Part shown: in pieces, positions 27,151 through 62,489 of the stretch
How the letters are laid out: the number at the start of each line of letters is the position of its first letter
Numbering within the stretch: position 1 is the stretch's first letter
Source: Tubiluchus corallicola
Lineage: Eukaryota; Priapulida; Priapulimorpha; Priapulimorphida; Tubiluchidae
Reading direction: 5' to 3'
NCBI GenBank assembly: GCA_030141605.1
Contig: JAQGDQ010000031.1
Coordinates: forward strand, 854,001-918,000
DNA: 64,000 nt
Notes under the pieces: model-generated
Databases searched by the model: none
What the model was told of the DNA's origin: nothing
The model's input: the letters and a program-made list of their open reading frames with translations, nothing else
Position numbers and translations under genes: made by a program

Positions 27151-28550
27151 TCCTTTGACTGATACTGCGGGCACACAGTATCTTTGACTGATACTGCGGG
27201 CACACAGTATCTTTGACTGATACTGCGGGCACACAGTACCTTTGACTGATACTGCAGGCACACAGTACCTTTGACTGATACTGCGGACATGACATACAGT
27301 ACCTTTGACTGCTATTGCGGACACACAGTATCTTTGACTGCTATTGCGGACACACAGTACCTTTGACTGATACTGCAGGCACACAGTACCTCTGATTGAT
27401 ATTGCGGACACACAGTACCTTTGACTGATACTGCAGGCACACAGTACCTTTGACTGATACTGCAGGCACACAGTACCTCTGATTGATATTGCGGACACAC
27501 AGTACCTTTGACTGATACTGCAGGCACATAGTGCCTTTGACTGCTATTGCGGACACACAGTACCTTTGACTGATACTGCAGGCACACAGTACCTTTGACT
27601 GATACTGCAGGCACACAGTACCTTTGACTGATACTGCAGGCACACAGTACCTTTGACTGATACTGCAGGCACACAGTACCTCTGATTGATATTGCGGACA
27701 CACAGTACCTTTGACTGATACTGCAGGCACACAGTACCTCTGATTGATATTGCGGACACACAGTACCTTTGACTGATACTGCAGGCACATAGTACCTTTG
27801 ACTGCTATTGCGGACACACAGTACCTTTGACTGATACTGCAGGCACACAGTACCTTTGACTGATACTGCGGGCACACAGTACCTTTGACTGATACTGCAG
27901 GCACACAGTACCTTTGACTGATACTGCGGACATGACTTGCATTATCATTGACTGATATTGCGGACACACAGTACCTTTGACTGCTATTGCGGACACACAG
28001 TATCTTTGACTGATACTGCGGACACACAGTACCTTTGACTGATACTGCAGGCACACAGTACCTTTGACTGATACTGCGGACACACAGTACCTTTGACTGA
28101 TACTGCGGGCACACAGTACCTTTGACTGATACTGCAGGCACACAGTACCTTTGACTGATACTGCAGGCACACAGTACCTCTGATTGATATTGCGGACACA
28201 CAGTACCTTTGACTGATACTGCAGGCACATAGTACCTTTGACTGCTATTGCGGACACACAGTACCTTTGACTGATACTGCAGGCACACAGTACCTTTGAC
28301 TGATACTGCAGGCACACAGTACCTTTGACTGATATTGCGGGCACACAGTACCTTTGACTGATACTGCAGGCACATAGTACCTTTGACTGCTATTGCGGAC
28401 ACACAGTATCTTTGACTGATACTGCGGGCACACAGTACCTTTGACTGATACTGCAGGCACACAGTACCTTTGACTGATACTGCGGGCACACAGTATCTTT
28501 GACTGCTATTGCGGACACACAGTATATCTTTGACTGATATTGCGGACATA
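27151..28550. repeat. Minisatellite, 29-bp unit, about 48 copies
   Basis: The unit is ACCTTTGACTGATACTGC followed by AGGCACACAGT. Variants carry CTATTGCGGACAC or CTCTGATTGATATTGCGG, and these recur in the same order (for example at 27389, 27475, 27679, 27737, 28179), so blocks of several units have been copied. Two units are interrupted near 27284 and 27925. Each unit has the inverted pair TACTG...CAGTA. The minus strand lacks stop codons in all three frames, which creates long cysteine-rich open frames of up to 402 codons that need not be genes. Confidence 0.97.
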
Positions 28551-29859
28551 CAGACAGACAGACACGAGGATGCAAATTCCAGTATGCTATTATGATATTG
28601 ATTATATAATGCAGTAACATTGTAGCGTGCAGCCGCCGTTTGTAATCTATATAAACCAAAGTTTATACAGCTACTATAGAGATGCTAAGTGCTTTTAAGT
28701 GTAAATTATGGCGAATATATTCCACGCAGCGCACATCATATTTCTCTCCGTTAGCGCATCCCAGATGATTCATTTGATGAACAGTGAAGTTTCGGCATAA
28801 AAGTGGATTTTTGTGGCTCGACTAAATCCCGGTCGAATCGTTTTCAGCGGTTTCTGCGAAACGTCTCTCAGAGAAGCGCGGAAATCTAATTTGTACGCAG
28901 TTTTGATCATGTGCGGGGAGGAAAGTTCTGAAGGGCAGTTTATCTAAACACAAATGCGTAAAAACAGCTAAGCTAAATAGGCAGCTGGTTTGATGTGTGC
29001 TTTTCTACATGTAATGAAGTTAAGTTCCTTGACCTGATGTCACTAGTTCAATAATAGCACACTGAAACGATCAAGAGTGCATTTAGCCATGCAGGGAGAG
29101 TTGGTCTGAGGGGGGCGTTTGAATGTGACAAATCGAGCAATGCTTTTGATATTCATCTTTTTAATTTAAACACGACTTTATTGGTTTAAATTACAGTTTT
29201 ACTACTTATTAAGTGATTTTCCCCTCTCCCATTGTACAGGTTCAAATATCGCAGAAGAAAGGACCCGTAAATCCTTACATTTTGTTGTAAAGGTCAAAGG
29301 TCAAGGCCGCAATATCAAAAGTATCGAAATAATAAATTTTCCCAATGGTGACCGTGCGTGAATCCGTCGGTCTGCACCTCTATTGAGTGCCCTCCTTCTA
29401 GCTGTACTGTCTTTGACAACAAATTACCTAAAAAAAATTCTGCACAAAGCAAAAGAATCATGAGAATAGTGGTTTCTGATTCACGCATCTGTTATGTGGA
29501 CCAACCAGTGTGATCAGCGTTAGTTTAAACATAATTTATTTAGGATTGGATCAGACAGTTTGTACAACATGATTTAGGATCCTCACCACAACAGACTTTA
29601 TACATTGTTTACAAGAACATTTACAGTAAGAATAGACTATACTTAGTTTTTAGTATGCTTTAGTATACTAAAGTTTTACTACAGTGATACATTAGACATT
29701 AGTAGAAAATGACGGTTAGTAAATATTAATGTACGATTATTTAAGAACGATGCATTTTATATGAGTTAGAAACTACTGGAAGCGTTTAGTACGTAATATA
29801 AAGTCATGTATACATTGGAATATTTTACAGTTAGTAACATAGTTAAATTCGTCTTTTCC
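28551..29859. other. Gene-free stretch with relatively CpG-rich part
   Basis: The interval 28690-28930 has more CG dinucleotides than its surroundings, and 29292-29304 reads AGGTCAAAGGTCA, a perfect DR1 nuclear receptor half-site pair. No coding sequence was recognised. Confidence 0.35.
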
Positions 29860-30970
29860 GAATAATAACAACTTCAACAGATCATTTTTCCTAAGGCAGC
29901 TATATTAAGGCTTTCGGGCAGAAGTATTGCATTAAATTTATCAAACATAACTACCATAGCTAGTTGATGCAATGGGCAGGGCAACAAAAAGTGTTCAACA
30001 GACTCAAATCGAAATCCACAGTTACAATTCGGCAATATTGGATTACCGTTATTATCTTTACAGCCTTTAGAGAAAAGGTCATAGTTTAGCTGAGAAAATC
30101 CGATTCTCATGCGCGTATGATGCACTGATATTGGAGCTTTACCAAATGAAAAATGTTTCTTACGCAACGAAAAACTTAAATGAGATTTGAGCTCTTGTTT
30201 GAACTGTGAAATGGATGTAATTTCACGAATGTTCTGTGGTAAGTTGTTCCACATGTTAATGGTCGATATGAAAAACGATTTTTCACAGCTAACAGAACGG
30301 CAATTAAAATTTCTGTATTTAGTACCACTGCGTATATAATAGGGGGTAACTTCGTTTACCTTTGGCGGCAGAATTGCACTTAAATAGTGGGGCACTAAGT
30401 AAGTCATTGATTATTTTGAAAAAAGGACATAGGCGATGATAATGGAAGCGTGTCACTAATTTAGTGTAGCCGCTATCAGACAAGATACTTGCAGGGGAAG
30501 ATCGAAACATATCGCCAGAACAGATTCTAGCAGCAGTTAGCTGAATATTTTCTAACAAACGTATACTGTTTTCACTGCATCCTGACCATACTACGTTACC
30601 ATATTCGATGGCAGGGAGAATAGTCGTAATGAATAATCGTTCACGCGTAGCTCTGGGCATATTAACTGACACGCGTCGAAAGTTGTTTAGCTTTAAAAAT
30701 GCTTTGTCTACCATTTTTGAGACGTGATAGTTCCAATTCAGGTCAGATGTAAGATGGATACCTAAATGTTTGTGAACATTTACAGTTTTCAGTGAGTATT
30801 AGATAAATATAGAGTAGGATATTGAGGAGCATTGGATTTACGGGAGAAAAGCATGACTTCGGTCTTATTAAGATTAAATTTAACCAACCAACGTTTGGCC
30901 CAGTTTTCAATTATTCTAAGATCTGCCTTTAAGCGATTTGCTGTGTGATCAGCATTGACAACAAACCCTG
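29860..30970 (-). pseudogene. 5'-truncated LINE, ORF2 C-terminal half
   Basis: On the minus strand the sequence runs from NADHTANRLKADLRIIENWA and FNLNKTEVMLFS (end of the reverse transcriptase palm and thumb) through HLGIHLTSDLNWNYHVSK, LPAIEYGNVVWSG and LLENIQLTAARI, to FISTINMWNNLPQNIR and a Cys/His tail HTRMRIGFSQL..CNCGF..VEHFLLPCP. A stop lies near 30800 and a frameshift near 30400. This is a CR1/jockey-like non-LTR element truncated at its 5' end. The 3' untranslated part may reach to about 29510. Confidence 0.88.
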
Positions 30971-31045
30971 AAAATAAGCGCGATTTTACAAGCCTTCACT
31001 TTGTTAGCACCCAAACAACGAAAAACAACTCAAACAGTAACTATG

Positions 31046-43343: not shown

Positions 43344-44254
43344 ATGTTCTGTCGAATACCCGGTTGTTTGCAGTTGAAGATGACATGTCGCCGTATCACC
43401 AAACATTTTACCCTCAAGGGGGCAGTAGTGCTTGTGCTTATATTAAGCACAGTGCTGCCAGCGGTGCTGATCTACCAAACATCTCGGAATCGTGTGCCCT
43501 TAGAAGCCACATTCAAATGCAATACCAGTCCGCAGATGTCAACCCGTCCGCCAAACTCTCACCATTCGAATGCCAAACTGAGGGTGGATGCGAAAGTGCT
43601 CGTGTTTACAGAGACTCCACTCTCTTCGCTCGGTCAGGAGATCAAGATGATACTGGAGTGGAATCGTTTCCGCTTTAAGATGGATGTCGCGGGTAAAAGT
43701 TTGCCAGTATTAACTAACTTAGACAAAGGCAGATATGCTGTTATTGTGTTTGAAAACATGGACCATTATTTTAGCTTGAATAAGTGGAATAGAGACTTGT
43801 TAGATAAATATTGCCTAGATTATGATGTAGGTATCCTGTATTTTGCCCCATATCGGGAGCAAACAATTATCGGATCACGACTGCGTGGCTATCCATTATC
43901 TGTATACACGAACGTTCCTATTCGAGATTATGAGCTGAACACATTTTCACAAGTGCTGCGAATTACGCGTGCTGGTGAAGTTCAGCATGGGTCCATTCCC
44001 GAACACGGGAGGTGGACGGTCTTCAAAACTAATCACTCGACATTTGAGCCAGTGGCATTTGCTCGTTCTAAGCACTATGTGGACACTGATGGCACTGAAG
44101 AACTTTTGACTACAGTGTTAGAAGACAAAGGATTCTTCGACGGTGTGCGTAGGATCTTTTTTGGGCAGGGTTTCAAGTTTTGGCTCCATCGCCCAATATT
44201 TCTAGATGCAATTTCTTATTTGTCGCACGGAAAGCTGTCAACACCATTTGTCAG
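43344..44254 (+). CDS. NDST: NDST coding exon 1 (tail, anchor, N-terminal deacetylase region)
   Basis: A single 911-base exon encodes a short basic cytosolic tail with several Cys and Arg, the anchor [18 protein letters not shown], a low-complexity stem, and then the conserved N-terminal domain ([60 protein letters not shown]). It ends two bases into an Arg codon at GTAAGA. One N-glycosylation sequon, NHS, falls in this conserved part. Confidence 0.95.
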
Positions 44255-45897
44255 GTAAGAAAATCCTGCTAAACAGAGACTGACTTTTTGCAAAGGATAT
44301 TACTTTAAAATGAATATTTGTTTCTGTACTGTACTGTAGTTATGAGCTGCCACATTCAAATTTCTGTGACTGGAGCCAACTGGCAATTGGACAAAATTAG
44401 TTATAAAATTTGAAATTGAAAAGTTCAATTGGAAGTTGAAAAGTTCCATGACTTGGTGACTGATATGTGGCATATACTGTAGGTATACAAGAATTTCTCA
44501 TGGTGTATTCAGACTAGCGAGTTTTCTTGTCTAGTTAACTCACCAAAAAACTCTTCAAGTAACTCGCAAGCGTATTCAGTTTAGAGAACAAAACTTGCTG
44601 TGAGCTACTCTCCGAGAGTAAGCGCGAGTTGACAGTCACCGAGGCATTCACACCTGGCAGGAGCTTGCTGGAAATCAACTCGCAGCAACTGTCAGTGAGT
44701 TTAAAATAACTTGCAAATAGTAGCTCGATAGTTCACATTTGCGAGTTTGATGTTAGAGAGAAAAATCGCGACAGAAAACTCACTAGTCTGAACGCGCCAT
44801 TAGTGTACAGTGTTACTATCTTACAGTAAATGTAAGGATGTGCTAAAAATTAATCCTGCATGTAATTGTTTCAGATACATCTTGGTTGATGTAGACGACA
44901 TTTTTGTTGGCGAGAAAGGAGTGAGAATGACCTCCAGTGATGTACGGGTTAGTATCAGTTGGATTCAGAATGCTGCACGATACATACATGTTTTTGGCGA
45001 ATTGATCTTTCTTATTTCGTAAATTTCATTTTTAAATGGAATTTTGATGTCCAAACTGTCAGACATTACAATTACATGTAGACAGTGAATGTTATTTAAA
45101 CTCAGTTAGTATAATTGTAATGCCAAGATTACTATTAAACTAAATTTTAAGATTAGATTTTGATCAATCTAGAAAAATAGGAAATCTGCAAAAGTTGGAA
45201 TACAGTCTGGATTTGAACCAGCGACATTCTACTTATGAGGCATATGCCTTAGATAACTTGGCCACTGTATTTCCCAGTAGTCAAGGTTGTCCAGACTTCA
45301 TCCCTTATGGTTGACAAACCAAATTCAGTAGTTCCATGTAAGCTTTCTCATGTATGTTATTTAATTTTTTACCCCTAAAGCAAAGCTTAGTCAATATTGC
45401 TACCAATGTTTCACAATGCTTGACTGCACAATTTGATGGAAACTAAAAAATTAATTTTGAGATTCCAGACCTAAATTGGTAAATGATTTTTCATTTGCAG
45501 TCCACTCAAATTACCCGAATGTAAGCTATCAGACTTTAGCATTTACGTCACACGGCAATTTTTCTGATATTTTCATCAGTTTATGGCTGATGCTCAATTA
45601 ATTTTCCTCGCTTTCATCATTTCTGCAGCCACAACGTCGTTATCGGCTGTTTTCGTAAACTACATCGACCGGCAAAATGGTTATTGCTTTCGAATGTCCG
45701 TAATTTAAAATGCAGTGGCAATCCGGAAAAGTAATGTTAGAAACTTGGATTAGAATTGCAGAACTGTTAAGCGTGAATAGTTTTTTTGGAATACAGCACA
45801 GCATGCAGAGTGCAATATTTGATTTAATATTGTGATGTGATGCATAGCTGTCTGGGAATATATTTCTAATGTTCAATTACCGCTTTAGTTGAATGGA

Positions 45898-45928
<31 letters not shown>

Positions 45929-48900
45929 GTTTAATATTATTAAACGTGGAATTTGTGATCGTGTTATTTTTTTGTACAGAACATTCTCTTCTTTGTGCAG
46001 GTCCCGGAATATTTTTTAGAGAGTAAAACCCCAAAATTTAAAATGTAAGTGTCCCAGATTTGTAGGCATTATTGCCTCATTGAAAATACTGAGTCTACTA
46101 AATAGAAAAAAGCTTAGATAAAAATTTAGTTGTTCAAACGTTTTAACAGTTAGTTATTCAAAACACTAGTGTTTCTGTGCTTTAGGTAAAACCATCTGGA
46201 AAAGATTGAATAGAATCTTGCATAGCATTGCGTTCAGAATAGGATAATTCACTGGCTCATTAGCGTATGCTAATTAGCGTGCATGTAAATTCATCATGCT
46301 TTTCTTTCTGCTTCCCGATATTAAATAATAACCAGCAATTGATTAATTTCATCTGACAACACAGCCGGCGGTTGTTTGGTAGTTTTTGTTGCCATGGTGA
46401 CGGATTAAAAATTAACCAGGCCTTTGTGGGTTCCCTCCTTGCCTACATTAGGGTTTGCAGTCAGTAAATTAACTTTCAAATTGGCGTTTTGCTGCATTCA
46501 TTTTGAACCCGTGTGCTTTGCTTTTTGTAACATTATCTACTAATTTGGGCAAACGTGTAAAACCACCGAAACATGCTATTTTTTTATATTTCAATTTAAT
46601 GACTGAAACTAATATGAAATTATGCCTCATTTAAAATGAATTACTAAAATAGCCACTTATCCAATAACATTTTTGACAGTATAGCTTAAGTTTCACTAGT
46701 TATCAGTTTCAGTGTTTAGCCATAGCAAATCCTGAAATTCTTAAATTTAAATGAAGAGCTTTCAGGTGTTAGTGAATAATTGACTAGTTATTTTTAAAAA
46801 CATGAACAGCATTGATATTTTTCACATTGTTTGTGTTCATATTTTTCAACCAAACTTTCATTTCCCACTTAAGAAAAGCCTATTAGGCTATTTTTCACTT
46901 TAATACGAGTATTTTTTGCTTCTCTTAAGGCTTTGGTTGACACCCAAGAAAGAATACGCCAGAGAGTTCCCGGTTTCACGTTCAACTTGGGTTTCTCTGG
47001 GAAATATTTTCATGCCGGTACCGAGGAGGAGAATCGAGGAGATGATGAATTAATAGGTAGGATTTGATTTACCAGCGAATTTAACTCATTATTTATTAGG
47101 ATCATCAATTATGATAATATGTTTTGTGATTATAATACAATTCAGAAAATAGGTATAATGAATGTGCTATATAAAAATCATCGTACAGCATTGATTTTAC
47201 TCTGAATATTCAGTTTATTTATGAAAGAATAGTAGGTAAAATTTTACTTCAACAGGGAAGCTAGGTTTGAAAGCCAGTTAATGCTAGACAAGGTGTCTTG
47301 CTTATTTAAACCTACAGCAGAAGACTGGCAACCTGCACAAAATCTGTGCTGCTGCATCGTGTGTCTAAAAACCCTGAAAAAAAGCAGAAGAGCTCTATTT
47401 CAGTTACTCTGGGTTGGTAATTTGGCATGACATTGTAATAAGCCGAGATCTGCATGAATTTTTATTGATCTCCACATCAGCATAAGATTTTACACAAGTC
47501 ATGCCCAGCAGAAGATGAATTTAAATAGTAATTTGAATTAAAAAATTAAGACATGTTAAACTTAATGGTCCCATGAATTACCATATTGTATGTAGATGTA
47601 GGCGTAACGTGAGTCTTTCCTTCTTTGTTTTTGCACATTTTACATTTTTTCAACTTAAAAGCTACAGCTTGCAAATCAATTACTATTTTTCTTTTTTTGA
47701 GGGTATTTAAAAAAATGTTTGGCTCAATCTGCTTGAATGCTTTAAATGTTTAAGCTAACAGTTTTACTAGCTTGTTTAAGTGAGCCCTGTTATATTGCAT
47801 CTAAACTTTAACAGCTGTTCCTTGAATAGTTAAGCTTGGTCATATACTTTCCAGTGTTTACCTTGTACAAAAGCAAATTTTATTGAGTTTTTATTGCTGT
47901 TTTCATTATGGTTTGAGCTGCAAATTGCTCTGTTTATTATAAGTAGCAATTTTCGCAAAGCTGTTACTTTAAGCGTGTGTTCTTATATTGCTTAAGTTAT
48001 GGAGACGAGGTCACGAGGGCTAGCCCACTTAAAACAATATATCAGCATTATGATTAGTTAATATCTCAAGCCAGAATTCGATGTTTTTTAAACATAAATA
48101 ATCATAAACTACAACAATAATGTAGCATTAATTACAACATGTTGCAAAACTGTTGTTGTTGATTGAGCACTCTATTTTTGGATGTTTTTTCAACTTTAAC
48201 ATTTTTGCTAATTTGATACTGCTCATGATTTAGCAAATGGACATTTCACTCAGTTTAACAAATAGACAGCCTGGAAACCTCAACAATTCCTTAATACTTT
48301 TATCATTGATTGCCCAGTTGCCTAAGTATTAGCAGTGCAAAAAATGAAGAGAATTGGTGACAAAGTGATGTTCTCCAAGCCGTAGTACTCGAATACAAAA
48401 TCGGTCAACGGAAAGCGAATGCGAAAAAATCAGGACTGTCGGCAGGGCTGTGGAGTTGGAGGCAGCAGTGCTAAAGGAGTCGGAGTTGCAGTTGTTAAAA
48501 GTTAAGACAGGAGTCAGGAGTCCTGAGTATACTTATTGTTAGAAGAATTGGAATAATCAGTAGAAAATAAACAAACTCAAACTCCAGTTACTTTGGACTT
48601 TGAACGAATTTATGCATAACGTCCCATTTTGGGATGCTTTTGCATTGGTGTCTATGCAGCTAGATTGTTTTTCGAGTATAAGAAGTAGTGACAAAATGAC
48701 ACTATATCTAAATATTGAGAGTGCTACAAACTATTACTTAAAGGCAGGAGTTGGGGTTCCTAAAATTTTACGAGTTGGAGTCGGAGTCAGAGTTGAATCT
48801 AAAATTTTAGGAGCTGGAGTCAGAGTCGGAGTTGGATCTTCTAAAATTCTAGGAGTCGGAGTCAGAGCCAGAGTCAGAAGTTTGATGTACCGACTCCGCA

Positions 48901-51417
48901 GTCCTGACTCGTTGCTTATGAGATGATGATGGATGTAAACGAAAGTCCTTGTTACAAACTTGAGTTCAGTCTTGGCTTTTCACAATTTTTATGTCAGTCA
49001 AGTTTGGTTTTAAAAATATAATAATTTTGAGTTTTTAGCGTAATATTTGGATCTGCTGTTATTTGGATTATTTGGACTATGACATCGTAACAGAGAGAGC
49101 CAGCTAATACATTGACTGTTTGAGTATCATCTGAAGGGTGTAGTTAAGGCGTGATAATAAAAATTCCCTTGACAACTTGCCTTAGTGCCTCTGCTTTAAA
49201 TTCTGGTTCATTTCATTAAGCCTTACTTTAACCAGTCGCAATTATGAGATAATTAAAACTAATTTGTAAACAATACGGAACCTGAACTGCTGGAGGTTTT
49301 TTTACAGATCATAAAGATCACTTCACGTGGTTTCCGCACATGTGGAGTCATTACAAACCCCACTCCCTTGAATCCTCCACCCTCCAAATTCACATGAAGA
49401 AGAATCTGCAGTTTGCACAGGTATTACAGGTGGCAGCACTCTCAGTTAGCTTTTTAGAGCTAAGATAGCTTTGGTGGCAGATATTGGCATAGTTACTTTG
49501 TCAGCATCCAGTATGGTTTTACTAGTTAGCATTGGCGACTTGGCGTTAGGTACGTACTAATTCGAACGTAATTTTTATTTACCAAATATCCACCCTAGAC
49601 TTCGTTGGCCAAGGTAAGTTTATTCGAACTAGATTATGTAGATTTGGTTTTTTCTTTACTCCATTCCGTATTACAGCACTTTATGCTGAAGGAAATGCAT
49701 TAAAGTACAAATTTCTGCATGAGAAGCTTTTAGAAGCCCATTACAATGTAAGTACATATTAATAATTTATAGTTAGTTCCCCAAACAACTAAGCCATTTA
49801 TTGTGTGTGAATTGGCGGCTAGACGTCATGTATGAACTGTTGCAAACCATACAAAGACTAGTTAAGTTAAGTAACTTTGGATAGGGAATGACTGTAAATT
49901 ACTATATTCAAAATATAATTGAACTACTTGGCTTTACTGCTAATTTTTGTAACAACCTTAGATGTGTAATTTATACATTTGTTTCTAGCATGAAAGTGAT
50001 GAAACAGCTTTCACACCGGGTCTAATTTCTGATCACAAAATGAAAAAATATAAAGTTGTTTGCTAACTTTGCTTTCTTGTAATCATTGGCATGCAGTATT
50101 GTTTTTGCTATTCTGCTATTGTGCCAAATACACATGTTAACTGAAATTTTCCATAATGGACATTTAGCCTAACTAATGTAAACAGTGGCTAGAGTTTATT
50201 TGCATCTAACACTCATTACGTGGTTCCAAAATATTAAAGTGCTAATTTATTGCCTTCAGGTCACGATTAAAAATCACAATTTTGTTTTGGAAGAGAATAG
50301 TGCATTTTAATTTTGAGTTCTGGTAAATAATAGAAAAATTCATGCAGTGTTCCCAGAAACCTCAAGGTACTGGGTACAAATCTTGGTTGGCTCACATTTT
50401 TCTCAAAGTCTTCTTCCTAAAATTTGACAATTGATTAATTTTTTCATTTTTTATTTCAAACTAGACTATGCATTTGACTTTTTGTTTCATTGAAATGCAT
50501 TATTTTTTAAGCAAGTTTGGTCAATCAATTTTGTTTATTTTACTTATTAGTTCTTTGAATTGAACTAAAACCAAGTGAATGCTTAGGATCATTTTTTGCA
50601 TTTCCTCAACTAGTAGAAAATATGTTCTGATACTAATTACTAAGTTGTAGCCAAGTTTTGCAGTATGTAGGCACAAGTAAATGTTATAGCTAAAATAGAT
50701 TCTGTTAGTACCTATAAATAATTTTTTTATATAGCAACAACGACACTATAAATAGTACTAGTAATACTGTAATATGTATAACGAGATACGTAAAAGTATC
50801 TATATATATAAGATAGAACAAAAATGCTTTGGGAAGCAAAGATGAAGCATTGAAACTCATGCGACTGTAATTAGCTCTTAAAAGGTAGGTATTTTTACTT
50901 TATTTATATAACTAACCTGGCCTTGTTCCTGTACCATTTCTGGAAAACATCCTTGTCTTTCCTCAAAATCCTTCTACCACAGAAGCACACGAGTTTGCAG
51001 GCAAACTGAACAGCAAAACAATGAAAGAAGAAACAATGACACAATGAAAACAAAGAACCAAATTTGTCTAATTACCATGCCTGTTAATCTTTCCTTGGCA
51101 GCGGTTAGTTATATTTTTTATTTCTCCAATTATTATTAGCACACTCGTCGAAGTTTTCTTGGTTTGGCCACATGTGGAGCCACAGTCAGCCACATCAGAT
51201 CCTTACAAGGGAGAGCTTGGAAAACGAGATGAACTTGAATGTGGCGTTCGCAAAGGTGAGAACATCTCGGCACCTGGGCTTTTATGCCGTTAGATATTCT
51301 TTCACTTCATGTTAGTCGGTTAGCTGGCATAGTTGACTAGATATGATAAGATTCTTTTTCTGCAAGTGTAGTAATAATATTAGCTTGACTATTTCATAAT
51401 AAACATTTGACTTTTAA

Positions 51418-51458
<41 letters not shown>

Positions 51459-54400
51459 TTAGTTATGTGTGATACCTCTTACTCATTTTGAAGTATAACA
51501 TAGAAAAAGTAAATATAATAAATATGCTACATTATTCTACCATTTATTATATTTTTCCAGAATATTTGGATTGTAATGGCTTTCCAGTAACTGATTGTTT
51601 CATTTTTACTTTAAAAATAGCATTACATTACTACATGTATTTTTAAATAATGCATTGATCTACTGGTTATAATTTATGTTATTTTTAATTTAGAAACATA
51701 ACATAAGTGCACAGACAGGATATTCAGTAGCACCACATCATTCTGGCGTGTACCCCGTGCATGAACCGTTGTACGATGCATGGAAGAAGGTAATTAATGG
51801 AGTGAAATTAGTGACATGTGAAAAACAATGCAAGTAACTAAGCCTGGATCATGAGCCAGACTTGCAGTTTATTCCTATTGTTTTGTTATTACTTTCGTTT
51901 CATTTTTTCAGTCTGTTTACTTACGTACTATCTAAAAAGCCAAACAAGGATTTTTTGAACTGCCACATTTTTTGAATGGCTGTAATAGTGTCTCATGTGT
52001 ATGTACTACATTACAGTGCATATTAGGCGTATAAACTTAAGGGAAAAGTGGACATATCTTAAACTGTAGGTCAAAACAATCTAGTCTTTAAAATATTGAA
52101 AGGAACTTGCTATTTTTTCAAGAATGATTTACATGAAGAAATTATTACCACACAAACGTAAGTTCGCATTCGCACTTCTAGTTTTTCGCTGTTGCATGCA
52201 TTGCACCATTCATTAGTTAGATGGGCAGTAGCGCCTGCATTTTGGAAATGCATTGCACAAAAAACGTGCAGTACATCTCAATTCAGATTCAGATGTGTTT
52301 GTTTGTGATGTGCTTTTGTAGTATTATTGGTGTTAAAATGTACATTTTTACAATACTTCAAATTGGGGTAGGCTATGGAAAATCAACTCAGTTTCCTTTA
52401 ATGATCAAGTTTACAAGCTGATGAATGGATATAAATATAAAGATTCGTTTCTTTCGCTTGCAGATTTGGGGTGTGCAAGTGACAAGCACGGAAGAATATC
52501 CTCATCTTCACCCTGCGAGGGCTCGTAGAGGCTTCATACATAGAGGCATTAAGGTGGGGTGATTTTTGCTTTTTTTGAAAGCCTTATGCATGTACTCTTG
52601 GCATTCTGCATAATAGCTTTATGCATTTGTGAGTGATATGAACTAAATTTAGTAATGAAAAGTTAAACAAAGTTTTTCTGTACAAACGAGTAAGAGCCTC
52701 TTAGCTTCATAAGTCTGTAAGAATTTTAGCGAGGCTTCAAGGATGTAGTGGCTGAGTTTCAGTTTCATTATTCTTGTACATTCATCAATGTAATGTTAAC
52801 CCTGCTTAAGAACATCTACGACATTAGTAACGTAGATTAATCACTTTGTATGATGTTCACACTCACTCGCAGTTATAGGTGTAGTTTAATCTACAGCCAA
52901 ATGTAGAAAATGGATATTGAAGTTTAGTGGTAAATACCGCTGTTTTTTGTTTTTAGCATTTTGCTTTTGTACAACGATTTAGCATGCCCTTTCTCGAGTT
53001 TACTGCAATTTACATTATTTATAATGTGTTTTATGTAAAATATTATAGCTGTGTAAAAATAAAAAATTCTCATCACATCTCCCTTGCAGATTCAAAATTC
53101 TTACACTATTTAATTCTTTCCTTACAGTAATATTATTGAGTTCTTTACTCCAGAAAAGTGAAAAGTCTCTGCTTTAGTGTGACGAGCTTCTTTAGCATTC
53201 AGACTTATCTTCCCAACTGATGTTATTGCTTACAGCAGAGCTAATTTGTCTACATTAGTTAGTTAATTACTTACTTACAGGTGTTACCCCGGCAACTATG
53301 TGGATTGTTTACACACACGGTTTTCCTGGATCGGTATCCTGGAGGAAAGCACAAACTACAAGCCAGTATTCACGGTGGTGAACTCTTCCAGACAATACTC
53401 AATAATCCTGTATGTATTATTGATTGCAAAGAGCTGTGAAATGTTTTCATTTTCGAACTCTGGGAATAAATTCTGTCACTGGGAGCTGTTGCGACAAATC
53501 CGCTTACAATGAAAATTTGTCAACTGAAATATTGTTTTTCCGCTTGAAAACGATGACCTTTCAAGAACGAAGGAAACAAGTTGTCATTGTCATACAGGGC
53601 CATCTAGAAAAAATGTTCCCCCATATTAACTGGTGATCCTTCATCCTATTAGAGGCATTTGTAATAGAGAGCCACATCGCAGTGTAGCTGCATTTTTCCT
53701 CCTTCCTAAGAGCTATAAATTTCCCTCCAAGACCCTCGCCAGGTGCCGCTAGAGCATTTTTTTATGCAGCATTGCAGTAGTGAATAAAAGCATAAAATGG
53801 CCAGTTTTGGAGATTTTTTACCTGCCATTCCTAGAGGAATGCTGTGTAGAAAAATGCTTTATCGTTACTTGTTCGGAGTTTTGGAGGGAAATTTATAGCT
53901 CGTTGGAAAGAGGGAAACGATGTTAAATGATAACGTGGACCTTTACAAATGCCTCTACCCAGGATAAAGGTTTACAAGTTTGTTGGGTGTTGGGGCAATG
54001 TTTCTGTGTGGACAAACCTGCAAATCGTTTTTACAGTTGCATAGTTATCCTTCAGTTGTGCTGCATGCTCTGGAAGCAATATTGAGAGTTGAGAAGTAGT
54101 TTTATATTGTGAATTTATAACTGTCTTTCAACTGTGTAATGTTTTCTAGACTCATTTGCCAGGTCATGTTTAAATCATCAATACATTGTGGCAAATTGAA
54201 ACCTAAATCGGTGGATTTTTTTGTTGCATAAATTTCACCTGAAAATAATGTGATGGACGAAAAGTTAGTGCTGTCTTGAACATAGTGACTAACATTGATG
54301 TAAACTGGTGAAACAGCCCCTTTCTTTTATATAAAAATGAATCAGATACATTGAGTGTGTATATTATCTTTGTACTCTGAATGCCACCTTCAGTTTACGT

Positions 54401-57400
54401 CATTTATCATTGTTATTTACTCGATTTTGGGTTTGTTACTAGTACCTTTGTTATTTGTTAAGTAAATTGTTAGTTAACATGTTAGTGCAATGCAAATGTT
54501 AATGTGTTTTTTGATCGAAAAAATACAACAAGTCGCTCTTTACATATTGCTTTTTCTATTAGTCACTACTGCTTTCTTAACATTATTTTATGTTTTTCCT
54601 ATTTCTTCAAACCACTAACCTTCATAGAGCTAAAAAAATACCAAGTTTCTAATTCTGAATGCATTTTAACTGGTTTAATTTGAAAGTTCCATTTTAAACT
54701 GCATATTTAAAGAAATTGCAGGCATTCTTTTTTCTTGCATAGCCACAAAAATGACCTCACTAACCAAGTGAACATAGAAAATAGCGTTAGCCAGTTCTTT
54801 GAGCAAAATGTGCATTGAGGACTGAAGTGACATCTGTGTTACTGTAAAAATACTGATTTTTAAAAAAGCAAAGTTACTCATTACTACATAACACTGGTTG
54901 TAACTGATGTCGTGTAGATGTTTTATGTAGTGGTAAACATGTAAGCTGATTTTTTTCACATACAGATTAACATCTTCATGACACACTTGTCCAACTACGG
55001 CAATGATCGACTCGCTCTTTACACGTTTGAGAACGTCATCAAGTTTACTCAATGCTGGACGAATCTGCAGCTGTTGTCTGAATCTCCTGTTAAGCTAGCT
55101 GATAGATACTTCAGAATGTTTCCAGATGAGGAGGATCCTGTATGGCAGGTGCGTTCAAGAGCAGACCGTAGGTGGGGTATGGACATGTGGGGGTTGATTT
55201 TTTAGTGGGGCAACATCTTATTTCTGATTTAGTATTCGCTCCTGCAGTTGAACTAAAATGGATATCGTAATTTATTAATACTTATTTTATATTCCCTTGC
55301 ATAAAGAAACAACCTTTGTTATTGACGTTGTAACTAATGCAGGTTATTTTTGTTCATGGAGGCCTGAACTATATCCAGAAATTCAATAGAATGTAATGAC
55401 CCTGATGTAGCTGATACTTTTTAATAGTGTTTGTTTATGTTTATGTTTGATATCTTATGTTTTTGCAACTCACATCAATTTCTTTGCACTACTGTAAACA
55501 TTTTTGCAATTTACCGCAGTCCCCAATTTTTTATGTTATCGAATCTTTCTAGTTTTTGAAACATTTTTTTCTCTAAATGTTTTATAGGTGTCACTAACCG
55601 ATATTTTATTTGCAATGTTTATGTCAGTCTTTGTAGTTCTAAAGCCATTTTTAAGCACAAGAGCTTTTAGTGCACCATAAAACACTATTCAGCCTTACTA
55701 AATCCGTAGACCCTTATCTTGTATGCCGATATCTGAGTATCATTAATCATCCACTTCAGTATCTCATCTATCATATCCTTATATTATCCGCCCCCAACTA
55801 ATTTTTGCCATCTTTTTCCTTGCACGTTTTACTTCCTGTTTTACCACCAATATATGAAGTTATGTTACATTTCTTATTGATTTTTAATACCGTGACTGCC
55901 TTCACGTGAGAGGCTTTCATATAGGCTTTTTATTATAGACCAGTTAGTCAATCACTTAGTAACGTTATAAGATTTCAGCTGTTCACGTATGTATTGTTTC
56001 AATTTTCTTTAAATACAGCCAATAAATCAAAGCCATTTATAATGATACCCTTACATGATCTTTGCTGTCAGTATTGTAGCTGTGACATCTGTAATTTATC
56101 TTATAGAATCCCTGTGATGACAAGCGACACCTAGCCATTTGGGCGAAAAACAAGACGTGTACCAGGTTACCCAGGTTTCTTGTGATTGGGCCACAGAAGA
56201 CAGGGACCACAGCACTCTATACATTCCTCTCCATGCATCCTTTGATCTTTAGCAATTTCATAACTCCATCATTTGAGGAAGTGCAGTTCTTCAATGGCAA
56301 TAATTACTATAAAGGCATAGACTGGTAGGTTCCCTCCCCTTCCTCCCCTTTTCTGATACTGCTTAAAGGCACACTTTTGCATAATAGATACTTCATAATA
56401 GGCACATTTTGCAATAATTCTGTTATTAATTAAAGTATTAGTGTTCACACTAGTGGTGGAAAAGTGGTTCATTCTCATAATGAGATACAAATACCGATTT
56501 GATAACCGATTATAATCACTTTTCAAGTACCATATTACTTGATTATACTGCAATGATGATTGTATTTATCGTACGATTTTTGTAAATTTTCCAAAAAAAT
56601 AAGTTGAACATGATCAATTGATAATATAATCGATAGGCATCTACTACTGGAAAAATCATTGAGGATCAGAAACAAAGCCCAAATCGATTTATAATTGATT
56701 TAATTGATTAATCAGACCCAGCACTATTTGACACCAACAAAATTATAATTTGTTTTGCGTTTTACTGAAATGATTAAACATTTAGTTGTGCAAACTTCAA
56801 AAACCAGTGCATTTTGGGAATTTTTAAAGTCAAAGATTATGCCCCCTAAAATAAACATTTCTGTAATCTTTGTTGCAATAGAATTTAATGTTGTCATGTG
56901 ATGTGATGTGCCACACACTAATTATTATTAACCACCTGAACTAGACATTTACTTGTTATAGATATTTGCCGTTTATGCCCAATTATAGAAACTCGGGTCA
57001 TGATAGTGTTATGTCACCTTGTGCAATAAAAAACCTTTTCAGTACATGTGAAGCAAACTGTTTGCTTTTGCTTATTCTTTGGTATAGTAGCAATGGTTTT
57101 TAAGCTAATACATCTGCAAAAATTGTACCTCAAACATTTATAGAATTAATGGATTAATGGGAATATTTCATTTTAAAATGGAATGCTTCTTTAACATCTT
57201 AAAATCCTTGCTAGTGCTATACTGATTTAATCCAACTTTAAATATTTAAAGTTCTTTACCAAGACATATGGCTTCTCCAGTGAAAAGAAATTCATTCTTT
57301 TGGAATTTGTAATAATTGGTAAATTTGAATAATAGTTCATGGGTTGTTAAGCTTCATAAAAGCCTCACGTTTCTTATTGCTGTATATTCATTGAGTGTTT

Positions 57401-60400
57401 TAGTTTTATTTTCAAAAGCCTTATCTCCAAAGTTGTTGGTGCTACACGTGCTGATTACTTTGTACTCAGGTAACAGTGCATTTTTATTTGTTTCTCTTTT
57501 TTTCATTTTCTCCTGTTTTTTACTTTTAACAGGTACATGGACAACTTTCCTTCTCCGCAGATCAACTCAACACCACACATTTATTTGTTTGAGAAAAGCG
57601 CTACATATTTCGATAAAGACATCGTGCCTAGTCGGGCTTACGCATTGTTACCTCATGCTAAGATAATCACAATACTCATCAATCCAGCTAGAAGAGCTTA
57701 CTCTTGGTACCAGGTATGTACATTCAAGTGACTGCAGGTAACGTGCATTGTTTTCATTTTATTGTCATTCATTGCTTATTGTTATTCATGTGGTGCTGTA
57801 CATCTGGCCATCCCAGACTGAGTTAAATGGTAGAGGAAAAACACCTGAAAGCCGAAGTGCACTCAGGTTTCCAGATGTGGTGTAAATGGTGTCTATTGAT
57901 TTGAAAAGTTTGTAGTTTTTTTGCTTAGTGCTGATTAATGTATCTGAAATATTTCTAGTATCAATTTATATCGTTTATTAAATATAGTTGTATGCTAATT
58001 CGTATTCAGTTTTTTATTAAATCACTGACTAGACATGCCAGGCATGTATTAAATTTCTTTAATAATTGTAGGTATTACATAAAAAAATTTCGTTAGGGTT
58101 AGAGTTAGGTCTAGGATTAGGGTTACAAGCAGAACAAGCAGTACTAATTTGTCTATTTTCTGACCAGTATAGCCATTTACCTGTTATACCTGTGTTTTAC
58201 TAGTGATGGTGAAAGTGAAAACATTATACTGCAGCTTCCTACTGCTAGAAAACTTGGGCAATGTGTTGCCAACGTATAAGTATTCAATGTAAAAACAACT
58301 TTTTTCATGCAGTATTTTCTTATTTTGAGTTTTCTGCTTGGAATAGCAATGATTTATTTAACTTATTGCACAGTATTTGTAGTAGCAGGCTGGCAGAAAA
58401 TGTGTTTTTCACTTACTGCACAATAACTGCTAATTCGTCGTCGTTCTGTTCACTTGCATTGTGAATTTCATAGTAAGTTAATATCTGCAGCTGTACAGAT
58501 GTATTGAACAGCTGTAAAGCTGCATTGCTTATCTGATTTAAGTGAGTTTTTTAACTATTTGCCCAGAAAAGAGCGCTGTATAACTTTTAGCAGAAACGGA
58601 CACTAACTGGATTTGGTGAGGGATTTGGATTATCAGAAAAATTTCCTTCGGATTTTTTATAAACATGTGCAGCACTAGAAATCAAATTCTCTTTCAAAAA
58701 ATTACTTTTATCTCTTGTGGCACAAAATGAAGATTATCGATTGTTTTATACACCACTGCCAAAACAATTTGTATGTTAGGAAAGAGTTAATGCAACATTA
58801 CATCAAGTACGATACTTTCTTTCTACAGCACCAAAGAGCTCACAGCGATCCCGTTGCATTAAACAACTCTTTCTACACCATTGTGTCAGCTGATGAAACA
58901 GCATCCAGAGTTGTACGCGATCTTCGCAATCGTTGTCTAGGTCCGGGAATGTACGCACAACATCTAGAACGTTGGCTGGCTTATTATCCACCTCATCAGG
59001 TAAGTAACCTCATAGCTGCTTCTGTCAGTTGAGAATTTAGCTTAAGCTTAGTGTAGTCTGAGTGTAGCTTTGTTTCTGTACCAGCCATAGAATGCCAGTC
59101 AAATTTATTTCAACTTGTTTTGCGGTTCTTTTGTGTTTTCTGTGCTGCACACGTGTGCAGATATTCATCTCCTCGTACACGAGAGAGAAAAACATACATA
59201 AAATTGAATTTTATAGTAGCCACAATACAAGCTGCTATTTTTTTTCAATCACGCGTAACTCGTCATTGGTTGGCTGTCGCATTGCAGTTGCTTAGTGTTT
59301 TATTGAACAACAGTTTTCATGTTAGGCAAACACTTCTTTCTGTTTCGCTAATCAAGCAGTGCTTGTTGTAGAAAAGGTTCCACAAAACAATATTTTTGTT
59401 GTCCGTTTCTGTTTTTTATTTTTTTCTAGCGCACATGGATGCCAAATTTCTTGTTTTCTGTTTAGTGTTTTTCTGGCTTTAGGTTGAGTTACATGGTAAA
59501 AGAATTAATAATTTTGTTTAAACTGTGCCTATTAAAGGGTAGTGTGTGACCATTGCCTCAATTTTAATAGTATGCCTACTACCTGGTAATTGATGAATAA
59601 TTTTTAAATTCTTTTTTGTCTGGTCGTTTGCTTCTTTGATGATTTAATATTTACGCTATTTTGCTTTGGATGTGGAATTATCTCAAAAATAATTGGATAA
59701 CAACAATTTCTATTTGATAGGCACGCACATACATAATTTTCTGCTCTAGGTTTTTGGCACCTGTTGAAAATGTACACTGAAAGTAAAATCATTAATATTA
59801 TTCAAAATAATTATTATAAATTAAATATTTTCACTGAAGCTTTTCGCAGTCAAAGAAATAATGTCGGCAAAGCTAAAAAAGGCATCTGTCACCATACTGT
59901 ACTGTAAAAGGCATAAAATAAACGTTATGATTGAAAGCCTATAGTTTTGCAACATTCATTTTAAGTATTTGTGATATTCTATAGATAATTTCTGTGCTTT
60001 TTTACCAAAGAGAATTGTATATTGCCTATTTTAGTGACGTATTTTTGTTTTTGTAGTTGCTGATTTTGGACGGGGAGCAGTTAAAAGTTAACCCAGTTCG
60101 AAGCATGGAGCGAGTGCAGCGCTTCTTGAAAACCAAGCCATATTTTTCTTATGAGAAATACCTCAAGTATGTATATTAGTATATGAGTAGTAAGTAATAC
60201 TAGCTTTTCCGCCGACAAACCATTTTTTCCAAAAACTAACATTCAGTAGCTAAAGCACCAATTTAGCAGATGTTTAGGAACAGATTATACCTATTCAATC
60301 AATGTGTGTGTTTGTTGTTAATTAATAGGTGTGTGTGTTTTATTGTTAATTACAGGTGTGTGTGTTTTGTTGTTAATTATAGGTATGATCCAAAGAAGGG

Positions 60401-62489
60401 GTTTTACTGTCAGGTGGTACATGATGACCATACAAAATGTCTTGGGCGGAGCAAGGGTCGCATGTATCCGCCCATGGAACAACGTGCAGAAAAATTCTTG
60501 TCTAATTATTATAGGTAATGATACGATATATTGAAGTATACTGAAACGTAAATTACAATATGTTCTGTGATATATTCTGAACTATATGCTAGCTTCCTAG
60601 AAATTTGTAGGGCCTGTATTTATAATAATGACAATAATAATTTCGTTCAGGACTTATTCCAGGTATAACACCTTAAGTAACTCAATACTTATTTCTAAGG
60701 TGGTCCTGATTATTAGTACCCCATGTTACTTCGATAATTCCGTGTGCTTGGTCGAAGAACCAGTGGTACCATTTTTTAAGTCCTTGGTATGACTCGGTTG
60801 GGAGTTGAACCTGCGACCTCCCTGGTGCGAAACGAGCACGCTACCACCGAGCTGTGCCACCCTATACCAAAGACATGAATGTATTTGAATGCAAAGCTTA
60901 AAATAACTGGTAATTCGATGGTTGAACTTTTGTTAGTATAGTTATTTGTAATTCTCAGTTCTCAGAAGATATGGCAAACTGTCTTTAACTGATTTTTTTG
61001 CGTAACTGGTCATAGATCTGCTGTGAATTGCATGCGCTGGTTGTCTGATTGTATTGTACTGCTTACTGGATGAATCAAATGTCATTGTTTAGTGGTATAA
61101 AGTGTTTTGAATGAGTGGGCATCAAAGGAGTTTTGACCAGACAGTTTAGCTAGTGGTAACGTGTCCATTTTCTGTCTGGGAGGTCGTGAGTTTGATACAG
61201 CGGCCGGGCCATACCTAAATCTTTAAAAGTGGTACCTGCTGTTGCTCTGCCTGGTGCATGGTATTTAGGGTAAAAGTGGGGTAATAATAGTCTCTGTTAT
61301 GTAGTTGTAGGTGCTATTTACAACCGGTGATAATAATTCTTCGAGCTAATGTTAATTGGTCACCCAATAGCCATCTTTAAATAAAGATTATTATTATATA
61401 TACAATTAAAAATATTGAAATTACCTCATAATATACACATATAAAATGCCTTGCTCAGAAGTCCGAAAGAAATTTAAATCATTCTTATCCTTGTTGTGGG
61501 CATATTTGAAAAAAATAATATAAGCAGGTGGACAGTGCAAAAGGCATAACAAAACTTCTGCAGTTCACTCAGAAGTTCCACTATTCTAGTTGATTAAATT
61601 TTTCTGTTTAATTGTGTTTATGTGAAAATTAGTCATCGGATTACGTAGCAACAACTTCTGAGTTCTTACATAGTTTTAATCCGTAGATATATATCTTAAA
61701 ATGCATAAGTACTATGTATATTCTAATTGCAGATAAGCATGAAATTCTGCGAGCCTGCGATCATATAGTAGGTGCCGGGTGTGTTACCTAGCTTGTAGAG
61801 CTCAGTTTTAGGTTGTTAGAATAATCCTTCTTTTACATTGTCGGCATTAACTAGCTGAGTTGAAGATTATTGTATTATTATCAGTAATTGGTTTTCTTTG
61901 AATAAGAGGCAATGGGATTTATTAACAGCAAAAAAATGATATTAATAATCTCTCATTTAACGTTTTGGATTGTTTATAGTTGATAATAGTAACCGCAGCT
62001 GCAAGATGTTTGTTCAAACATCTGGGGATAGGCGTTTATATTGCCTGGTAACCGAATTACATCACTTTTGGTCCTAAGTGAGCCCACATAAGTGTGAAGT
62101 GATCACGATTTTAAATTGATTTTACTAATTACACGAGGCTGTCATCAAAATTTTGCTGATGCAATTTTCTAGCATTTTTCTTAAATATTAAAATAAGCTT
62201 AACTTTCCAAGAGCCTTGACTGTGCTTTTAACACATTTTTTTTTACCAATATCCAAAAACTATTATCTATGGTAATGAAGTTACGAATTGACAAGCATAA
62301 GTGTAACAAACAGACAAATGAGCACTTGGATGATGATTTAGTTGTTTGTGTAAGTTGAGTTAGTGTTTCTCAGAAGTTGATTGTTGCTGCATTTATTTCA
62401 GGCCGTACAACATAGCACTTTCAAAGTTGCTGTCACGTCTAGGTGAGCAAAACATGGAATGGCTGGATGAGGAACTAAAGAAGCGGTAG
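43344..62489 (+). CDS. NDST: Heparan sulfate N-deacetylase/N-sulfotransferase
   Basis: Two-domain Golgi type II membrane enzyme that removes acetyl from GlcNAc of heparan sulfate and then sulfates the freed amine using PAPS. Coding exons: 43344-44254, 44875-44947, 46930-47056, 49308-49420 (4a) or 51140-51255 (4b), 51694-51789, 52464-52553, 53281-53409, 54966-55148, 56107-56324, 57533-57713, 58829-58999, 60057-60166, 60383-60514, 62402-62489. All introns are GT-AG. With 4a the sum is 2622 bases, 873 residues plus stop; vertebrate NDSTs have about 880. Residues 28-44 form the signal anchor. The deacetylase part carries DVDD (309-312), HMWSH (381-385) and APHHSGVYP (from 421). The sulfotransferase part carries GPQKTGTTA (catalytic Lys 605), [11 protein letters not shown] (3' phosphate loop) and the Cys 810/Cys 820 pair. 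An alternative start is the Met at 43380. No stop, frameshift or missing key residue was seen. Confidence 0.97.
44501..44799. mobile_element. TIR element in NDST intron 1
   Basis: The ends are inverted repeats of about 30 bases: TGGTGTATTCAGACTAGCGA on the left and TGGCGCGTTCAGACTAGTGA from the right, then AGTTTTCT in both. The interior repeats AACTCGC/GCGAGTT in both directions. No protein is encoded; target duplication was not resolved, so the superfamily is open (Harbinger-like ends are possible). Confidence 0.75.
45199..45272 (-). tRNA. tRNA-Met-like sequence (pseudogene or SINE head)
   Basis: On the minus strand it folds as a tRNA: acceptor arms AATACAG and CTGTATT pair perfectly; the D arm has GCC and GGC; the anticodon loop is CTCATAA (anticodon CAT); the T arm is CTGG, TTCAAAT, CCAG. 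The A box (TGGCCAAGTTATCTAAGG) and B box (GGTTCAAATCC) are close to consensus. The anticodon stem has one mismatch and one wobble and the sequence differs from usual tRNA-Met, so a functional gene is doubtful. Confidence 0.5.
45899..45928. repeat. (TAT)n microsatellite
   Basis: About ten uninterrupted TAT units in NDST intron 2. Confidence 0.9.
48443..48906. mobile_element. hAT-like element with CAGGGCTGTGGAGT ends
   Basis: It begins CAGGGCTGTGGAGTTGGAGG and ends CGACTCCGCAGTCCTG, inverted copies of each other. The body is made of GGAGTCGGAGTCAGAG-type units interleaved with TCTAAAATTTTAGGAG. Elements with CAGGGCTGTGGAGTCGG termini are known in many animals. The flanking 8-mers ACTGTCGG and ACTCGTTG match only partly. 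The open frame at 48600-48926 is a by-product. Confidence 0.7.
49308..49420 (+). CDS. NDST: NDST alternative exon 4a
   Basis: 113 bases, phase 1 in and 0 out, acceptor TTTTTTTACAG, donor GTATTA. It encodes [19 protein letters not shown] and then a helix ending [14 protein letters not shown] is the strictly conserved NDST motif whose two His residues are reported to bind the catalytic zinc together with an Asp of DVDD. It is the copy closer to the vertebrate sequence at the Pro before the first His. Confidence 0.92.
49677..49747 (+). other. Possible third cassette exon
   Basis: Bounded by a TATTACAG acceptor and a GTAAGT donor, 71 bases long. Like 4a and 4b it leaves 2 on division by 3, and it is open when entered in phase 1 ([20 protein letters not shown]). 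It lacks the HMWSH motif, so it could not replace 4a or 4b functionally. It may be a chance frame or a cassette that makes an inactive form. Confidence 0.2.
51140..51255 (+). CDS. NDST: NDST alternative exon 4b
   Basis: 116 bases, phase 1 in and 0 out, acceptor TTATTATTAG, donor GTGAGA. It encodes [19 protein letters not shown] and a helix ending NLNVAFAK. It matches exon 4a at about 16 of 38 positions, including both motif His residues. Splicing 4a to 4b shifts the frame and meets TGA within about 95 bases, so only one can be used. It keeps SQPH, nearer to the MQPH of vertebrate NDSTs, but has Gly where they have Pro. Confidence 0.85.
51423..51453. repeat. (TA)n microsatellite
   Basis: About fifteen TA units between exon 4b and exon 5. 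Confidence 0.95.
52037..52401 (+). mobile_element. TTAA-family element, internally deleted copy
   Basis: It begins TTAAGGGAAAAGTGG and ends CAGTTTCCTTTAA, so both TTAA termini survive. It follows the 41593 copy from GGTCAAAACA to the TCAATTCAGA region, then jumps to GTAGTATTATTGGTGTTAAAA, having lost about 250 internal bases. It lies in the intron between NDST exons 5 and 6. Confidence 0.8.
53638..53970. mobile_element. Foldback MITE in NDST intron
   Basis: Terminal inverted repeats CCTTCATCCTATTAGAGGCA and (from the right) CCTTTATCCTGGGTAGAGGC, then TTTGTAA. Inside, AGCTATAAATTTCCCTCCAA is repeated inverted as TTGGAGGGAAATTTATAGCT. Most of the element could fold into one hairpin. No protein is encoded. 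Confidence 0.75.
56107..56324 (+). CDS. NDST: NDST coding exon 9 (start of sulfotransferase, PAPS loop)
   Basis: It begins [12 protein letters not shown], the domain border, and contains [19 protein letters not shown], the 5'-phosphosulfate loop with catalytic Lys 605, then [10 protein letters not shown] and YYKGIDW. Phase 0 in and 2 out (donor GTAGGT). The split Trp codon is completed by the next exon. Confidence 0.95.
56451..56726. mobile_element. Probable hAT-like MITE
   Basis: Ends TAGTGGTGG and (from the right) TAGTGCTGG, flanking 8-mers GTTCACAC and TTTGACAC with six matches. The inner flanks contain several AATCGATT-like motifs. The short inverted repeats make this less secure than the other elements. 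Confidence 0.5.
58090..58125 (-). repeat. Degenerate TTAGGG-like run
   Basis: TTAGGGTTAGAGTTAGG, TCTAGGATTAGGGTT: short interstitial telomere-like sequence in an NDST intron. Confidence 0.6.
60383..62489 (+). CDS. NDST: NDST last two coding exons
   Basis: Exon 13 (60383-60514) encodes [10 protein letters not shown], then [14 protein letters not shown]: the two Cys form the conserved sulfotransferase disulfide around the substrate-binding loop. Exon 14 (62402-62489) encodes the C-terminal helix [20 protein letters not shown] and ends KKR before TAG at 62487. The intron between them holds both SINEs. Confidence 0.93.
60627..60876 (-). mobile_element. tRNA-derived SINE, minus orientation
   Basis: The head at about 60801-60872 has an A box (TGGCACAGCTCGGTGGTAGC) and a B box (GGTTCAACTCC) of an RNA polymerase III promoter. 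The body has GGTACCACTGGTTCTT and TGGGGTACTAATAATC, and the tail is ATTATTATT-like. It shares body order with the SINE at 61135. Confidence 0.8.
61135..61396 (+). mobile_element. tRNA-derived SINE, same family, plus orientation
   Basis: The head TTTAGCTAGTGGTAACGTG with GGTCGTGAGTTTGATAC resembles A and B boxes. The body has TTAAAAGTGGTACCTGCTGT and TGGGGTAATAATAGTC, matching the 60627 copy. The tail is AAATAAAGATTATTATTAT. It is more diverged in the B box than its neighbour. Confidence 0.75.

Follow-up and report, generated by a model that had tools for sequence, protein, structure and literature searches.

NDST enzymes carry out the first, pattern-setting change on heparan sulfate and decide the places where growth factors and morphogens bind. 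The vertebrate enzymes NDST1 to NDST4 and the arthropod sulfateless protein share the same three domains, an Asp pair, a His-x3-His motif, an acid His and a sulfotransferase domain. Cryo-EM of NDST1 identified a metal triad of D320, H389 and H393, with D319 and H529 the likely base and acid, and alanine at any of these five positions abolished turnover; the metal is most likely Ca2+, although Zn was present in traces and the enzyme also works with other divalent ions (PMC10864358). In Drosophila sfl, the splice variants described are an exon of the 5' UTR together with a circular RNA (PMC7318944), and human NDST1 has alternative first exons (PMC5033324), in both cases outside the protein, and such NDST splicing as is described in the available text of PMC10864358, PMC4359090, PMC5740500, PMC9741552, PMC5033324, PMC7318944, PMC8698559, and PMC6071210 likewise lies outside the protein only. 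The gene described here, from Tubiluchus corallicola, differs from NDST1 to NDST4 and sfl in having a pair of coding exons, 4a and 4b, that are candidates for mutually exclusive use, in a genome with further NDST loci.

Exclusive tandem exons are generally neighbouring, homologous, nearly equal in length and of the same phase, with functional residues usually kept in both copies, and exons 4a and 4b resemble them in each of these respects. For human genes, 236 mutually exclusive tandem-duplicated exon events have been described (PMC9741552), and an atlas of human mutually exclusive exons rests on RNA reads (PMC5740500), whereas the 4a/4b pair is read from genome sequence. In KHK, the exchanged segment includes the catalytic Arg, which neither version has lost (PMC9741552). 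OGDH offers an enzyme in which exclusive exons, there also called 4a and 4b, change a metal-linked property, namely the sensitivity to Ca2+ (PMC7969005), whereas the segment swapped in the NDST gene carries the ligands of the catalytic metal, which are kept in both versions. The words NDST and sulfotransferase are absent from the main text of PMC9741552, and the main texts of PMC8442315 and PMC7268776 hold no mention of NDST.

The pair lies in a stretch of 64,000 nucleotides (the window) on contig C1338 of an assembly of 343.5 Mb in 2344 contigs, and a spliced gene for NDST is in itself a sign of an animal genome. A complete NDST gene, a relative of NDST and sulfateless, occupies 43344-60518 on the plus strand; all of its introns are GT-AG, and the spliced model gives a product of 845 amino acids with exon 4a and 846 with exon 4b. 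Human NDST1 (PDB 8cd0) matches the 4a form over residues 11-845 (E 4.7e-299), and Pfam families PF25119, PF12062, and PF00685 score above their cut-offs, in this order, in both forms, which have N-terminal, deacetylase and sulfotransferase domains. Exon 1 (43344-44254), bounded by its open frame and splice donor, holds the start codon, a hydrophobic stretch near the N terminus that was recognised by eye only and would be the anchor, and the N-terminal domain (HSNSD_N, residues 82-293). The catalytic Asp pair in VDVDDIF, equivalent to NDST1 D319/D320, is found in exon 2 (44875-44947), and exon 3 (46930-47056) ends in phase 1 after GDDELI. Exon 5 (51694-51789), which begins in phase 0, exon 6 (52464-52553) and exon 7 (53281-53409) come from the spliced model, and exon 8 (54966-55148) encodes the catalytic acid His in FMTHLSNYG, equivalent to NDST1 H529. 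The sulfotransferase domain starts in exon 9 (56107-56324) with GPQKTGTT, and the spliced model continues through exon 10 (57533-57713), exon 11 (58829-58999), exon 12 (60057-60166) and exon 13 (60383-60518), the last including the stop codon.

Two further features were seen within the gene. Intron 2 contains a tRNA-Met gene or tRNA-derived element on the opposite strand (45197-45271, minus strand, 41.9 bits), and a 27-bp unit is repeated three times at 60303-60384, directly before the last exon, so that three in-frame acceptors are present with AG ends at 60328, 60355, and 60382; splicing to either of the two upstream acceptors would lengthen the product by 18 or 9 residues and introduce no stop. 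Elsewhere in the window, a minisatellite in which a 29-bp unit recurs about 48 times (27152-28553) contains long minus-strand open frames, and by eye only, minus-strand open frames at 29877-30995 resemble pieces of a retroelement reverse transcriptase and those at 2091-2860 resemble exons of a stomatin-type gene.

Exons 4a (49308-49420, plus strand, 113 nt) and 4b (51140-51255, plus strand, 116 nt) are separated by an intron of 1719 nt. Both are entered in phase 1 and left in phase 0, both have GT-AG splice sites, and when aligned they share 16 of 38 residues (42%), so the coordinates, phases, splice sites, spacing of about 1.7 kb and identity of about 42% given in a sequence-only reading of this DNA were as described. 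The same reading had held that inclusion of both exons or of neither breaks the frame, which we could confirm, since a transcript with both reaches a stop after 438 amino acids and one with neither after 372. Single inclusion alone preserves the frame, a property that is common although not obligatory in mutually exclusive clusters, and because the other choices shift the frame, the gene would never productively use both exons or neither. When each exon was compared with the whole window by tblastn, 4a and 4b were each other's sole significant match (E 2.7e-07), the next match having E 0.24 or weaker. The repeat that links them lies within the exons (49328-49350 and 51160-51182), and no clear similarity was detected in the sequence flanking them, the sole long match between the compared stretches being their own overlap and all others having E of at least 0.045.

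Both exons encode the two metal-ligand His, which align with NDST1 389 and 393, just as the acid His of exon 8 aligns with 529 (counted along the 8cd0 chain), and the catalytic Asp pair, His pair and acid His stand at aligned positions with either exon. Since the Asp pair is encoded by exon 2 and the His pair by 4a or 4b, the choice of exon would swap two of the three metal ligands together with their surroundings. The ligands themselves are kept, whereas their neighbours differ, with Pro or Gly just before the first His and Tyr-Lys or Ser-Gln just after the second; the stretch beyond these is mostly different as well. The sequence-only reading had called these residues zinc ligands, an assignment at odds with the structural work on NDST1, in which Ca2+ is the likely metal and Zn only a trace (PMC10864358).

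Against the deacetylase profile the two forms score alike, at 340.6 and 341.4 bits, and taken as single exons 4a (35.9 bits) and 4b (39.2 bits) score higher against PF12062 than the exon 4 of either of two paralogous loci in the same genome (33 and 31.4 bits). A comparison of silent and replacement changes between the copies, which the sequence-only reading had suggested, gave pS 0.98 over 19.7 sites, a saturated value, and pN 0.40, figures that pool both branches and draw on few silent sites, so that a very recent death of one copy would escape them. Differences at codon positions 1, 2, and 3 number 20, 12, and 25 in 38 codons, and different codons are used for 8 of the 16 identical residues. 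We compared the segment with full-length homologues, the best 120 of 1242 and an arthropod-rich sample, to which the window protein is 56-64% identical, none among the matches listed being closer than 64%. Conservation across at least 118 of the 120 is seen at 13 columns of the segment, and all 13 are kept in 4a and in 4b; the probability that all would fall among the 16 columns identical between the two exons is 1e-07. Relaxing the cut-off to at least 117 of 120 raises the number of such columns to 16, and here 4a retains 14 and 4b 15. Of 20,000 neutral simulations that started from 4b and ran to the observed 50% nucleotide identity, not one ended with an open frame and all 16 shared residues still in place, and the best of them kept 10 of 16. 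The open frame taken by itself says little, as stops were absent from 19% of the simulations. Judged from these patterns, neither 4a nor 4b looks dead. With the 13 most conserved columns intact in each, it is more likely that both forms are working deacetylases than that one is active and the other inactive.

Taken together, these observations make it quite probable that 4a and 4b are a mutually exclusive pair that arose by an old tandem duplication, that both copies have been kept, and that the animal makes two full-length NDST forms. The exon carrying the metal-ligand His would have been duplicated in tandem long ago with both copies retained as coding exons, pre-mRNA splicing would join either 4a or 4b to exons 3 and 5, and the frame logic would remove splicing mistakes in which both or neither are included. 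The products would be two full-length Golgi enzymes that differ only in a segment of about 38 residues, in which both metal-ligand His and their surroundings lie; both enzymes would deacetylate, and the residues beside the ligands may alter the surroundings of the metal and hence the rate or the substrate window. A tuning of this kind fits the 4a/4b swap better than a switching off. The sequence-only reading had also proposed two NDST forms differing at the deacetylase active site, perhaps in activity or in preference for chain position; the tandem pair with the hallmarks of exclusive splicing, the intact gene and the constraint on both exons stand, while we infer the splicing of both exons in vivo, a regulated choice between them, and the tuning of substrate handling or rate rather than its loss.

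The pair reading has to be weighed against the unlikely case that one copy, most likely the more divergent 4a, has been dropped from productive mRNA and that the gene makes a single NDST. Exon 4a is indeed less typical of the family, with a mean identity to the 120 homologues of 43% compared to 48% for 4b, which counts against the pair reading; 4b is the closer exon in 105 of the homologues and 4a in 15. Scoring of the motif gave a similar picture, 4b being higher in 108 and 4a in 11 of 119 full-length homologues (the 120th, P0085 from Owenia, has no score because the motif's second Trp is missing), and in the two paralogous loci only a 4b-like exon was found. Among 30 proteins with short matches, a sample that leans towards 4a because the query carried it, 12 could be scored, eight being higher with 4a and four with 4b. 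However, a discarded 4a would not be expected to retain an open frame, intact splice sites and all of the 13 most conserved columns after its silent sites have become saturated, a degree of retention of the residues shared with 4b that the neutral simulations never reached, nor to outscore the paralogues' own exon 4 against the profile.

The early stops in transcripts with both exons or neither could also be read as a poison switch, in which mRNA decay lowers the NDST level, but an exon with no role beyond poisoning would be free to lose its protein sequence, whereas the 13 most conserved columns survive in both copies, and we regard this as very improbable. Even slightly less credible is an assembly error that misplaced an exon of another NDST gene into the intron. 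Other NDST loci do exist, and the assembly is redundant: contigs C1338 and C1677 both carry the exon pair and show 100% identity across 18,000 bases (C1677:897001-915000), and this identity led us to reject C1677 as an independent allele. Against a misplacement, the gene lies inside a contig of 519 kb, and the same order and identical spacing recur in C1677 (1058 kb). Moreover, a narrow DNA pattern search matched at these sites only and detected no other 4a-like exon, and a profile search found one 4b-like exon in each paralogous locus that spans the region, C1232 ending before exon 4, although a divergent copy could escape either search.

We looked for features that could enforce or direct the choice. 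Neither spliceosome incompatibility nor a too-short intron was found, as all introns are GT-AG (U12-type donors were sought by eye only) and the exons lie 1719 nt apart. Such enforcement is not obligatory for the mutually exclusive class. Two inverted repeats, 47418-47439/49740-49761 and 49733-49754/51563-51584, have a common arm, as in a docking-selector switch. We rejected this competing RNA pairing as evidence, since in a search of gap-free helices only, 145 of 150 dinucleotide shuffles reached the candidate; the best pairing site anywhere was reached by 23 of 150 shuffles under the same restriction. No regulatory element for the choice was found, the sole competing RNA pairing seen being no better than chance.

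A profile search of the genome returned 25 exon matches, on C1338, C1677, C2337, C1850, and C1232. A second type of NDST gene is found on C2337 and C1850, whose copies are 75-87% identical to each other over aligned DNA pieces and may be two separate genes or strongly diverged alleles. C1232 has a partial NDST-like locus that ends at the contig end before exon 4. C1850 also has a direct duplication with NDST exons 2 and 3, at approximately 121.0-122.8 and 128.9-130.7 kb, which is 99.9% identical over 1861 bases and may be either a young duplication or an error of the assembly. The genome thus has at least two further NDST loci beside the gene in the window. This departs from the statement that all invertebrates investigated in a study of zebrafish Ndst genes have a single Ndst gene (PMC4359090, as far as its available text goes), and horseshoe crabs, among the matches listed, also seem to carry several. 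The sequence-only reading had set exon choice here against vertebrates with their four genes, a contrast that fails because this genome has further NDST loci.

In each of the paralogous genes on C2337 and C1850 one exon 4 was found, with the same boundaries and phases as in the window gene, and it is 61-63% identical to 4b and 38-40% to 4a. A sensitive tblastn of the stretches from exon 3 to exon 5 found no second copy of exon 4 in either, which counts against the pair reading. In a tree of the exon segment (39 columns, 29 rows), 4b grouped with the paralogue exons (96) with 4a outside, but neither a tree in which 4a was held to 4b (p-AU 0.528) nor one in which 4a, 4b and both paralogue exons were held together (p-AU 0.712) was rejected. 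The protein fragment P0014 runs on past both ends of exon 4, apparently from intron, and as read from the protein this fits the same boundaries; exon 4 appears to be an ancient unit. In a tree of 32 rows, 31 of them chosen homologues, the window protein sits on a long branch (0.89) outside the side with the named arthropods, its companions being brachiopod, mollusc, worm, hemichordate and amphioxus rows. It is conceivable, though we hold it only tentatively and think it rather doubtful, that the pair predates the gene duplications, in which case an ancestral NDST would have spliced both exons, the paralogues would have frozen 4b, and the original gene would have kept the choice, with 4a giving a different substrate preference. 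If so, splice isoforms would have partly turned into separate genes.

Candidate isoforms and duplications were also met in other species. Two horseshoe crab entries named isoform X2 (P0072 and P0138, with a WFP-type segment) were not accepted as isoforms by exon choice; in Limulus, P0103 and P0138 look like paralogues, since they fall into separate clusters at 90% and P0103 groups with Tachypleus and not with P0138. In P0125 of Diaphorina citri, the end of the exon-4 segment is repeated, which might be a young exon duplication at the same place, but since the repeat is in identical letters and flanked by apparent intron read-through, it is probably an artefact of the gene model. P0125 was kept in the comparison with 120 homologues and left out of the exon tree.

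The sequence-only reading knew of no report of NDST exon choice, and likewise a search of open-access titles and abstract starts gave, among the matches listed, no report of an NDST or sulfateless gene with exclusive exons. Exclusive tandem exons at a functional site are well known, and the metal-ligand segment of a heparan sulfate deacetylase appears to be a new case. If both exons are used as proposed, T. corallicola would offer a compact natural experiment with two enzymes that differ around the active site only, which could reveal what fixes the rate and the spacing of N-sulfated domains, and the active site of this enzyme would join the segments that are tuned by mutually exclusive exons.
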